Source: Pseudomonas delhiensis
GTDB lineage: Bacteria; Pseudomonadota; Gammaproteobacteria; Pseudomonadales; Pseudomonadaceae
DNA: 64,000 nt
Direction: 5' to 3'
NCBI RefSeq assembly: GCF_900187975.1
Contig: NZ_FZPC01000003.1
Location: 1 to 64,000 of the forward strand
Part shown: piece after piece, positions 19,687 through 53,650 of the stretch
Layout: each line of letters opens with the position of its first letter
Position numbering within the stretch: position 1 is the first letter of the stretch
Made by a program: the position numbers and the translations under genes
Notes under the pieces: model-generated
Database searches by the model: none
What the model was told of the DNA's origin: nothing
What the model saw: the letters and a program-made list of their open reading frames with translations, nothing else

Positions 19687-20988
19687 ATGTTCAGCCCGCT
19701 CGTCACCTTCCCCGCGCTCTACACCGCCACCCTCCTGATGCTGGCCGGCTCCGGCCTGTTCACCACCTACATGGGCCTGCGCCTGACTTCCGAGGGCGCC
19801 GGCGACCTGTGGGTCGGCGGCCTGATGGCGGCCTACTACTTCGGCCTGGTCTGCGGCGGCAAGTTCGGCCACAAGCTGATCGCCGGCTTCGGCCACATCC
19901 GTTCCTACGTGGCCTGCGCGGGCCTGGCCACGGTGATCGTGCTGCTGCACGCGCTGGTGGACACCCTGGCGGTCTGGGTGGCGCTGCGCTTCGTGATGGG
20001 CGCGGTGATGATGAACCAGTACATGGTGATCGAGAGCTGGCTCAACGAGCAGGCCGAGGGCCACCAGCGCGGCAAGGTGTTCGCCGGCTACATGGTCGCG
20101 GTGGACCTCGGCCTGGTGCTGGGCCAGGGCCTGCTGGCGGCGAGCCCGGCGCTGGACTACAAGCCGTTGCTGCTGGTGGCCATCTGCTTCTCCGCCTGCC
20201 TGATCCCGCTGGCGCTGACGCGCCGGGTGCACCCGGCCAAGCTGGTGGCGGCGCCGCTGGAGATCGGCTTCTTCTGGAAGCGCGTGCCGCAGTCGCTGGG
20301 CACCATCTTCGTCGCCGGCCTGATGGTCGGCGCCTTCTACGGCCTGGCGCCGGTGTACGCCAACCGCAACGGGCTGGACACCTCGCAGTCGAGCCTGTTC
20401 GTCGGCATGTGCATCGTCGCCGGCTTCTGCGCCCAGTGGCCGCTGGGCTGGCTGTCGGACCGCGTCAACCGCAGCTGGCTGATCCGCGGCAACGCGCTGC
20501 TGCTGTGCGTGGCCGCCGCGCCGATGTGGGGGCTGGTCCAGCTGCCCTACTGGGCGCTGCTGGCCAACGGCTTCGTCACCGGCATGCTGCTGTTCACCCT
20601 CTACCCGCTGGCGGTGGCCCTGGCCAACGACCACGTCGAGCAGCCGCGGCGCGTGGCGCTCTCGGCCATGCTGCTGACCACCTACGGGGTGGGCGCGTGC
20701 ATCGGCCCGCTGTTCGCCGGGGCGATGATGAGCCACTTCGGCCCGGGCATGTTCTACATGCTGGTGTCGGCCTATGCGCTGGTGCTGATCTTCTGGGTGC
20801 AGCCGCGGCGCGTCACCGGCATCCACCGCGTCGACGAGGCGCCGCTGCACCACGTGGCCATGCCCGACACCGTCAGCCCCATGGCCGCCACCCTCGACCC
20901 GCGGGTGGAAGAGGTGCCGGAAGAGCTGGTGGTGGAAGCCCCGCCGAGCATCGGCCGCTCCGACGGCTCGCCCGACCAGGCGAGCTGA
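19687..20988 (+). CDS. MFS transporter
   Basis: A 433-residue inner-membrane protein with about 12 hydrophobic segments, of the YcaD-like branch of the major facilitator superfamily (opening with LVTFPALYTATLLMLAGSG and a short MGLRL motif after TM1). Conserved WLSDRVNR follows TM8. The last 50 residues are hydrophilic and cytoplasmic. ATG 19687 is preceded by GAGGT at good spacing. Substrate cannot be predicted. A strong terminator follows. Confidence 0.88.
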   Translation: MFSPLVTFPALYTATLLMLAGSGLFTTYMGLRLTSEGAGDLWVGGLMAAYYFGLVCGGKFGHKLIAGFGHIRSYVACAGLATVIVLLHALVDTLAVWVALRFVMGAVMMNQYMVIESWLNEQAEGHQRGKVFAGYMVAVDLGLVLGQGLLAASPALDYKPLLLVAICFSACLIPLALTRRVHPAKLVAAPLEIGFFWKRVPQSLGTIFVAGLMVGAFYGLAPVYANRNGLDTSQSSLFVGMCIVAGFCAQWPLGWLSDRVNRSWLIRGNALLLCVAAAPMWGLVQLPYWALLANGFVTGMLLFTLYPLAVALANDHVEQPRRVALSAMLLTTYGVGACIGPLFAGAMMSHFGPGMFYMLVSAYALVLIFWVQPRRVTGIHRVDEAPLHHVAMPDTVSPMAATLDPRVEEVPEELVVEAPPSIGRSDGSPDQAS

Positions 20989-21002
20989 CCTGCGAGAATG
21001 AG

Positions 21003-21027
21003 AAAGCCCGGCGGGTGCCGGGCTTTT
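21003..21027 (+). terminator. Rho-independent terminator after MFS gene
   Basis: AAAGCCCGGC and GCCGGGCTTT form a perfect stem with a 4-base loop, followed by TTCTTT. The A-rich 5' side means it could also work for the convergent minus-strand repeat-protein gene. Confidence 0.9.
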
Positions 21028-21057
21028 CTTTCACCTTGCGGTGTACTGCGCGTTGCT

Positions 21058-21657
21058 TCAGACCTGACGGAGGTGGGCGTTGAAGACGGTGTCGCCACCG
21101 GATTCGGCAACGCTCATGGCGCCGTGCAGGCGGTCGATGGTGTGGCTGCTGCCGTTCTCGGCTACGCGGGCTTCCTCGCTACCCATCTGCTTGTGCAGGC
21201 GGTCGATGGTGTTGGAGCTGCCATTCTCGGCTACGCGGGCCTCTTCGCCCATCTGCTGGTGCAGGCGGTCGATGGTGCGGCTGCTGCCGTTCTCGGCGAC
21301 GCGGGCTTCTTCACCCATCTGCTGGTGCAGGCGGTCGATGGTGCGGCTGCTGCCGTTCTCGGCGACGCGGGCTCCTTCACCCATCTGCTGGTGCAGGCGA
21401 TCGATGGTCTGGCTGCTGCCGTTCTCCGAAACGCGGACCTGCTCGCTCAGCTGCTTGTGCAGGCGTTCGATGGTCTGGCCGCTGCCGTTCTCGGCGACGC
21501 GGGCCTGCATTTGCTGGTGCAGACGATCGACGCTGTAGGAAGAGCCGCTCTCGGCCACTTGCGCCGGAGCCTGGGCGGAAACGCTGGCCGGGGCGGCGAA
21601 AGCGAGGTTGGCGGCGATCAGGGAAAGGGCGAAACCGAAGGTGAGGGTGCGTTTCAT
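21058..21657 (-). CDS. Secreted protein built of 22-23-residue tandem repeats
   Basis: A 199-residue protein: Sec signal peptide (about residues 1-21, ending AFA), a short linker, then seven full repeats and one partial one from about residue 34 to the end. The unit is close to AENGSSRTIDRLHQQMGEEA; the invariant core is ENGS plus RLH. Each unit alternates a short polar turn with an amphipathic helix. There are no cysteines and no membrane anchor, so it is probably periplasmic or released. ATG 21657 has AGGAG eight bases upstream. No known family comes to mind; similar low-complexity exported proteins of Pseudomonas have no assigned role. Confidence 0.8.
   Translation of the reverse strand: MKRTLTFGFALSLIAANLAFAAPASVSAQAPAQVAESGSSYSVDRLHQQMQARVAENGSGQTIERLHKQLSEQVRVSENGSSQTIDRLHQQMGEGARVAENGSSRTIDRLHQQMGEEARVAENGSSRTIDRLHQQMGEEARVAENGSSNTIDRLHKQMGSEEARVAENGSSHTIDRLHGAMSVAESGGDTVFNAHLRQV
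21095..21550 (-). repeat. In-frame minisatellite of about 66-69 bases
   Basis: Seven to eight head-to-tail copies of a unit reading (plus strand) roughly CAGGCGGTCGATGGTG...CTGCCGTTCTCGGC within the coding sequence. Neighbouring central units (21244-21375) are almost identical, so copy number may vary by slippage or recombination. Confidence 0.9.
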
Positions 21658-21957
21658 GATGTCTGGCTCCTGGAGGAAAGGGGTGTTGTTCTGGACACGG
21701 AGCCAGTATCCAATCTGGATTATCGATTTGAAAACGAAGCCGGGTGATGGTCGCTATCGATGCCGATGATGTTTAATTTATACCTTTAAAAACAATAAGT
21801 TGATTTAGAATATTGACTTCTATCAATGGCCTCGATGGGGTGTATCGATGTGGTTGTTCATATCTGTCGATTAGATAAATCCATCGACGGGAAAGGCCGC
21901 AGCTATCGCCGCAGGCGGCCCGGCGCCTCGCCGAGCCGCGTGCCAGAGCGCTTGCGG
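21658..21957. promoter_or_regulatory. AT-rich promoter region with two dyads
   Basis: A 300-base gap upstream of the repeat-protein gene. Bases 21770-21830 are very AT-rich for this genome and contain the dyad ATTGACTTCTATCAAT (21812-21827). A second dyad, GTCGAT...ATCGAC, lies at about 21866-21888. A minus-strand promoter with TATAAATT is plausible. No gene is seen in the gap. Confidence 0.45.
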
Positions 21958-22491
21958 CTATTTCAGGTCGGCGAGAATGTCGGCCATGTCGTCGGCGTGC
22001 TCCTCCTCCTGGGCGAGGATTTCCTCGAACAGGCGGCGGGTGGTGGGATCGGCCTCGCCGAGGTAGGCGACGATCTCGCGGTAGCTGTCGATGGCGATGC
22101 GCTCGGCCACCAGGTTCTCGATCACCATTTCCTTCAGGCTGCTGCCGGCGACGTACTCGGCATGGGAGCGCTGGGTGAGGTGCTGCGGGTCGAAGTCCGG
22201 TTCGCCGCCCAGTTGCATGATGCGTTCGGCGAGCAGGTCGGAGTGCTGCAGTTCCTGCTGCGCGTGCTCGAGGAACTCGCCGGCGGCGATGCTCGCCTTG
22301 AGCCCGGTGGCCACATGGTAGTGGCGCTTGTAGCGCAGGTAGCAGACCAGCTCGGTGGCCAGCGCCTCGTTGAGCAGGCGCAGCACGGTGGGGCGGTCGG
22401 CGTGGTAGCCTTCGGTCACGGCGCCCTGGTCGATGTTCTGGCGGGCGCGCTGGCGCAGGGTCTGGATGTCGGTCAGCGGGGCTTCTCTCAT
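21958..22491 (-). CDS. Ferritin-like (bacterioferritin-related) protein
   Basis: A 177-residue four-helix-bundle protein. Diiron-type ligands are visible in order: E in NEALATELVCYLRY, EFLEHAQQELQHSD, IENLVAERIAID, and EEILAQEEEHADD. The haem-binding Met of true bacterioferritin is not obvious, so this is a related ferritin-like or DPS-like branch. Length fits the family (about 155-180). It would store iron or protect against peroxide in the cytoplasm. Similar to the gene annotated as probable bacterioferritin near osmE in P. aeruginosa. Single gene. Confidence 0.85.
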   Translation of the reverse strand: MREAPLTDIQTLRQRARQNIDQGAVTEGYHADRPTVLRLLNEALATELVCYLRYKRHYHVATGLKASIAAGEFLEHAQQELQHSDLLAERIMQLGGEPDFDPQHLTQRSHAEYVAGSSLKEMVIENLVAERIAIDSYREIVAYLGEADPTTRRLFEEILAQEEEHADDMADILADLK

Positions 22492-37194: not shown

Positions 37195-37295
37195 TGCTGC
37201 AGCTTCAAGCCCCAAGCTTCAAGCCACAAGAAAGAGCGGTCAGCCTCGTTTTGCAGCTTGCAGCTTGCAGCTTGCAGCTTGCAGCTTGCAGCTGG
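37195..37295. repeat. Heptamer tandem repeat TTGCAGC between urtD and urtE
   Basis: Six perfect TTGCAGC units at 37251-37292, after looser AAGCTTCAAGC-type copies at 37200-37230. Similar tracts occur at 47698-47775, 49404-49480, 53530-53555 and 53611-53650, each at a gene end. Confidence 0.85.
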
Positions 37296-47697: not shown

Positions 47698-47780
47698 GGA
47701 GAGAGCTGCAAGCTACAAGCTACAAGCCGCAAGCAGAGCGGGGCGCCCTGGCTTGCGGCTTGCGGCTTGCGGCTTGTAGC
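47698..47780. repeat. AAGC-type tandem repeats between purH and purD
   Basis: GCTGCAAGCTACAAGCTACAAGC and its inverted form GGCTTGCGGCTTGCGGCTTG (from about 47751) flank CAGAGCGGGGCGCCCTGG. The whole could fold into a long hairpin between the two pur genes. Confidence 0.8.
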
Positions 47781-53592: not shown

Positions 53593-53610
53593 GGTTCGCA
53601 CATGATAGCG

Positions 53611-53650
53611 CTTGCAGCTTGCAGCTTGCAGCTTGCAGCTTGCAGCTTGC
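53611..53650. repeat. Heptamer tandem repeat CTTGCAG at the accC stop
   Basis: Five CTTGCAG units and a sixth partial one end exactly at the accC stop codon. Looser AAGCTTCAAGC copies at 53530-53555 flank the terminator on the other side, so the two tracts are inverted and may pair. Confidence 0.85.

Follow-up and report, generated by a model that had tools for sequence, protein, structure and literature searches.

The PA4881 gene of Pseudomonas aeruginosa and its control by MexT are already known from the literature. PMC3557286, in its account of this gene, presents PA4881 as an uncharacterised tandem-repeat protein that is controlled by MexT, and reports that PA2206 too binds the PA4881 promoter. 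A PA4881 mutant was stated in the same account to be no more sensitive to peroxide in disk diffusion (data not shown there). PA4881 heads the list of genes lowered in a PAO1 mexT mutant given in PMC12607905, with a log2 fold change of -6.5, which is the steepest fall in the published table of MexT-dependent genes of P. aeruginosa; PA4623 has a log2 fold change of -5.8. The product of PA4880 is described as Dps-like (PMC11150526), and PMC8872213 presents PtrA as a protein for copper storage in the periplasm under the control of CopRS. The nod box recognized by MexT is given as ATYA(N7)YGAT (PMC11432991).

We analysed a 64,000-nucleotide stretch of Pseudomonas delhiensis DNA, referred to here as the window. 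The repeat gene is an open reading frame with bounds at exactly complement(21058..21657) and a product of 199 aa. Its N-terminus, MKRTLTFGFALSLIAANLAFA, was judged by eye to be signal-like (residues 1-21, cleavage AFA|AP; codons at 21595..21657, minus strand), and on this basis the product is very probably exported. Seven tandem units follow (residues 34-181; 21115..21558, minus strand), each consisting of a 17-residue core, VAENGSSxTIDRLHxxM, and 3-6 linker residues, and then a degenerate C-terminal unit, VAESGGDTVFNAHLRQV (21061..21111, minus strand). The cores start at residues 34, 54, 76, 98, 120, 142, and 165, giving spacings of 20, 22, 22, 22, 22, and 23. A ribosome binding site, AGGAG, was located by eye at 21667..21671 (minus strand), and its GGAG is kept in the promoter alignment. 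An earlier reading of the window, made from sequence only, had called this gene a secreted minisatellite protein composed of 22-23-residue units. That description and the ends given for the gene hold. TRF found an array of 66 bp x 5.8 copies with 87% matches and a score of 529, the highest of the 21 TRF rows for the window (the next was 86), and the mature protein matched itself at 80 positions at a lag of 22, whereas 5000 shuffles reached no more than 30 at any of the lags 5-59. The DNA of units 4 and 5 is the same across 51 bp, as expected from the claim that the central units are nearly identical in DNA. The count of seven units plus a degenerate last one also stands, but the first spacing of 20 falls outside the unit length that was given. 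At E <= 0.001 the protein matched only itself in its own genome, with no second repeat gene found, and it had no match among plasmids or phages.

TRF also reported three perfect heptamer arrays in the window: TTGCAGC x6.1 at 37251-37293, GGCTTGC x3.9 at 47750-47776, and GCTTGCA x5.9 at 53610-53650, the last of which follows a stem that looks terminator-like by eye.

The gene adjoining the repeat gene on the same strand (21958..22491, minus strand) encodes a Dps-like ferritin that is 81% identical to PDB chain 8w1d, a 'Dps-like protein' (E 2.2e-89). Combining this match with the description of the PA4880 product in PMC11150526, we read 8w1d as the PA4880 product and the neighbour as the PA4880 orthologue. 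A search of the genus with the 8w1d chain identified one genome at 100% identity, G012 (L023 641-1174). Directly downstream of PA4880 in G012, in the same orientation, is a gene whose 113-aa product has ADNGSERTVDRLH-type units, four in all and three of them of type NGSE(R/Q)T(I/V)DRLH. An AsmA-like gene and the PA4880 gene lie upstream of the repeat gene in both G012 and the window. The window protein has the signal-like N-terminus and the tandem NGS..T[IV]DRLH units, with 63% identity over query residues 95-182, and a MexT-type nod box with 0 mismatches lies upstream of its gene. Because of the PA4880 adjacency, the synteny, and the repeat type shared with G012, the window gene is almost certainly the orthologue of PA4881 under MexT control. 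The earlier statement that no characterised family of this type was known is not supported, as a MexT-controlled tandem-repeat protein had been published. On its other side, the window gene is tail to tail with an annotated MFS transporter (19687..20988, plus strand); an MFS neighbour is also tail to tail at a locus in another genus (L024; g6, where the boxes are degraded). A second paralogue in G012 has an MFS gene on one side and a TpsB-type gene, which we take to be cdrB, on the other; because of this position, we presume this paralogue to be PA4623.

The best Pfam match of the window protein was DUF6356 (4.7e-08), which we treated as a chance match. The whole protein scored 33.5 bits, where the cut-off is 24.4, yet 0 stretches passed alone, and the best one spans the signal peptide and the first unit. 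PA4881 scored 19.4 bits.

A longer MexT consensus, the 24-mer ATCAN5RTCGATN4ACYAT, was reportedly described by Tian et al. in 2009. The site ATCATCGGCATCGATAGCGACCAT at 21747..21770 (minus strand), 113 bp before the start codon, matches it with 0 mismatches and fits the looser ATYA(N7)YGAT as well. A second, weaker MexT-like site with 2 mismatches is present at 21835..21858 (minus strand), and a promoter block, GTTTTCAAATCGATAATCCAGATTGGATA, at 21707..21735 (minus strand); the MexT-type box and this block are both conserved in an alignment of 27 promoters. Allowing up to 2 mismatches, 2 box matches were found in the window compared to 0.04 in shuffles (n = 100). The site at 21747-21770 is the sole perfect box in the 6.7-Mb genome, in which two others have 1 mismatch and the reversed-pattern control gave 0. 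One of the two 1-mismatch sites precedes an ArsR gene. Among the 1-mismatch MexT-type sites of this genome, one lies immediately ahead of a small lipoprotein gene but is oriented the opposite way (L042; C41:92469-92492). MexT in this genome is 87% identical and uninterrupted, with a divergent MexS-like gene beside it. The MexT dependence in print is that of PA4881; from the box and the intact regulator gene, we infer that MexT would regulate the window gene in this organism as well. We favour a promoter of the repeat gene's own, apart from that of the ferritin gene, because of the MexT-type box and the 300-bp gap. Within 20950-22000, neither a sigma-70-type promoter nor a minus-strand terminator was matched. 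The link of the repeat gene to the ferritin-like gene is one of neighbourhood, because the repeat gene has its own box.

A MexT-like protein (E <= 1e-80) is present in 25/25 genomes of the genus, and 23 of the 25 have a match to the window protein at E <= 1e-4; in one of the remaining two the match is weak and falls at the end of a contig. MexT is present in genome G004, and the repeat gene is absent there at E <= 0.001. With genes too close to a locus end excluded, there were 41 distinct homologous promoters, comprising 24 of first-gene type and 17 of extra-copy type. Twenty of the first-gene promoters have a box with 0 mismatches, one has 1, one has 2, and two have 3, and the perfect boxes are located at -110 to -113. 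The mismatches number 3-5 in each of the 17 extra-copy promoters. The extra repeat gene copy occurs in tandem in 16 genus genomes (L003, L005, L007-L020) with a different LysR-like box. These boxes are alike among themselves (such as ATCGACATCACTGATGCTCTGTAT) and lie 110-114 bp before the extra genes. Two or three MexT-like proteins (E <= 1e-80) were found in 14/16 genomes with the extra copy versus 1/9 others, counts that ignore kinship.

Ten sites in G012 have no more than 1 mismatch. Four of them stand before genes that appear in the published MexT table, which from context we take to be PA2759, PA4354, PA2813, and PA4881, whereas 6/10 are not followed by any clear MexT target. In the mexE promoter of this genome there was no match to the 24-mer even when 4 mismatches were allowed; by eye, it has only the looser ATYA(N7)YGAT.

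We extended the box search to a sample of 148 genomes of the family. Perfect sites numbered 99, with 35 in the 25 genus genomes and 64 in the non-genus part of the sample, and 93 were distinct once five without a locus and one of an identical pair were set aside. Perfect boxes were present in 51/148 genomes and 8/19 genera, a wider reach than that of the protein search, in which the window protein as query matched 59/298 family genomes at E <= 1e-4, in 4/19 genera. In this family-wide sample, perfect MexT-type boxes most often precede a gene for a secreted repeat protein (60/93, with 75-90 bp from the site to the start codon). A PA4354-type ArsR gene follows 26/93 boxes at 57-75 bp. The other 7/93 precede two LLM-type oxidoreductase genes, one lipoprotein gene, presumably PA2759 from its context, and four places without a convincing gene. 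The LLM-class oxidoreductase gene stands behind perfect boxes at two loci of one genus (L152 and L175; g35), and in G012 there is a gene for a similar protein near mexT. Genus g6 has repeat proteins, but its boxes are degraded to 3-4 mismatches and no perfect site was found.

The number of units had been expected to vary between strains, and it does vary between relatives. The window protein has 7 units, three proteins from two records labelled P. citronellolis have 8, 6, and 5, and the range is 3-15 units per protein over 42 distinct homologues. The unit itself has a constant part and a changing part. Across 461 units from 57 distinct proteins (those with masked letters, shorter than 70 aa, or without ATG were excluded), a nine-residue core, VAExGSxRT, recurs at modal unit spacings of 12 to 28, and unit length overall ranges from 12 to 25 aa. 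The composition of the core is V (87%), A, E (95%), [GND], G, S (74%), [DSE], R (73%), and T (74%). The free evidence for the motif comes from V, R, and T, because the search pattern fixed A and G and put limits on what could stand at E, x, and S. In 55/57 proteins the modal spacing of units is 12, 13, 14, 18, 22, or 23, and the two at 28 are probably cases of skipped 14-aa units; in g6 the spacing is 25 or 22. The residues past the core differ between spacing groups. As read from these alignments, related genera keep the switch and the short motif while the rest of the unit is rewritten. The constant part, the nine-residue motif, can now be separated from the variable part, the spacer and the unit number. 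No account of the motif or of its rewriting across genera was found among the papers that the literature searches listed, subscription papers lying outside their coverage.

We propose that the repeat gene encodes a MexT-switched, exported, multivalent, motif-bearing envelope protein, an explanation that we consider moderately probable as a whole. Under electrophile, nitrosative, or disulfide stress, the LysR-type regulator MexT would switch the gene on through the nod box about 110 bp before the start codon, in the same response that drives the MexEF-OprN pump and detoxifying enzymes (xenB, glutathione S-transferase). The exported product would then work as a flexible, multivalent string of VAExGSxRT motifs parted by spacers. 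With many copies of the motif, it could bind an envelope or extracellular partner with avidity, in which case unit number and spacing may drift while the motif is kept. This part of the proposal, that the protein acts by multivalent binding through the motif, is tentative. Nevertheless, we favour it over four other explanations, because the export signal, the repetition, the motif, and the switch are what these proteins share.

The alternative that survives best is that of a hydrophilin- or LEA-like envelope protectant, a Gly-rich polyampholyte free of Cys and Trp and unfolded in solution that would form an amphipathic helix on membranes or on drying, and for which bulk composition counts rather than a specific motif. 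The mature window protein has 9.0% Gly, a mean hydropathy of -0.84, and 18 basic and 24 acidic residues; Cys and Trp are absent from the mature part of all 42 homologues, and Cys is absent from 57/57 proteins. At 98 degrees, the hendecad angle, the 22-aa window repeats have a hydrophobic moment of 1.17, and an idealised 18-aa repeat has one of 0.96 at 100 degrees. AlphaFold, given six repeats as a single sequence, returned one long helix (pLDDT 82, pTM 0.35), which we treat as weak evidence because no alignment supports it. However, the full protein with a four-sequence alignment reached a pLDDT of only 51, and idealised 12-13-aa units from other genera, whose moments peak at 85, 90, or 110 degrees, reach just 0.04-0.11 at 98-100 degrees. 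The suggestion that the units might form amphipathic helices thus suits the 22-aa and 18-aa units, and the window units could form such a helix; a helix common to all unit types is unlikely because the 12- and 13-aa units do not fit. AlphaFold gave no reliable fold in our hands, and a search of solved structures with the window protein returned only ten weak matches, mostly helical (best E 0.018). There was no LEA or hydrophilin family among the Pfam matches of the window protein up to E = 1. Composition alone also does not explain a recurring nine-residue motif, and we regard this alternative as somewhat unlikely.

A second alternative is a periplasmic metal (copper) buffer, in which a near-invariant His and a frequent Met in each unit would chelate metal, as has been proposed for PtrA, which itself has one such motif. 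Of 269 units counted in the genus, 258 carry H, at a position where the search pattern admitted H, I, or R, and 202 carry M. The NCBIfam model of the PtrA N-terminal domain, NF041599 (cut-off 31 bits), places two of ten relatives above its cut-off, at 74 and 76.1 bits, with the other eight below it or unmatched. However, those two scores are sums over repeats with no single stretch passing, and both the window protein (20 bits) and PA4881 (23.5 bits) fall below the cut-off, so a relation of the repeat proteins to PtrA is suggestive only. In other genera, behind the same promoter box, His is found in 32/258 units and Met in 0/258 units at 13-aa spacing, and none of 9 units at 12-aa spacing has His. 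Counted jointly over 56 proteins, His and Met occur in 17/19 units at 22-aa spacing, 41/83 at 18, and 0/258 at 13. Ion binding by His and Met is hardly the shared function given these counts, and we dropped it as a family-wide one. MexT is not known as a metal regulator. The metal buffer is improbable as an explanation.

It is slightly less probable still that the array is a selfish minisatellite, with repeats that persist by slippage and recombination and serve no function under selection other than a strong promoter. Within a gene the units are homogenised, with up to 15 per protein and many identical, and pN/pS between the window gene units is approximately 0.6, so that constraint on them appears moderate. 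Nevertheless, the motif, the signal peptide, and the MexT-type box recur across genera, and nearly all genomes of the genus match the window protein. A tandem peptide precursor, from which proteases would cut short signal or anti-competitor peptides between units, is very unlikely: near-identical short units stand behind a signal peptide and basic residues are found at unit borders in some genera, but the residues after the core vary between spacing groups and the annotated neighbours suggest no processing protease or receptor.

The multivalent, motif-bearing envelope protein could be part of something larger, a stress module found throughout the Pseudomonadaceae. In this module, exported 'bead-string' proteins made from a conserved MexT promoter, with a unit that changes from 12 to 25 residues between genera around a constant nine-residue motif, would form a new class of multivalent periplasmic ligands. 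We regard this extension as a long shot. Such a ligand would possibly have the MexEF-OprN pump, or some other machine of the envelope, as its target.

The known systems resemble the window gene to different degrees. LEA group 3 proteins and hydrophilins are hydrophilic, Gly-containing proteins with an 11-residue-type helical periodicity. They share the hydrophilicity and Gly with the repeat proteins and the 11-residue-type periodicity with the 22-aa subfamily, but this periodicity is absent from the 12-13-aa units. PtrA (PA2808), like the repeat proteins, is a short Pseudomonas protein, and in the copy in the genome of the window the signal peptide is followed by a single LAESGGDRTF motif; it differs in having no tandem repeat and in its control by CopRS. 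PA4623 has the same repeat type (AENGSEQTVDRLH) and a strong MexT dependence in print, but it is a protein of 129 aa encoded at another locus, beside a TpsB gene, and its box has 2 mismatches. The closest system is PA4881, which shares with the window gene the PA4880 adjacency, the signal-like N-terminus, the repeat core, and the MexT-type box (at -107 in PA4881). The two differ in that PA4881 has 113 aa, four units, and a box with 1 mismatch, whereas the window gene encodes 199 aa and seven units behind a box with 0 mismatches.
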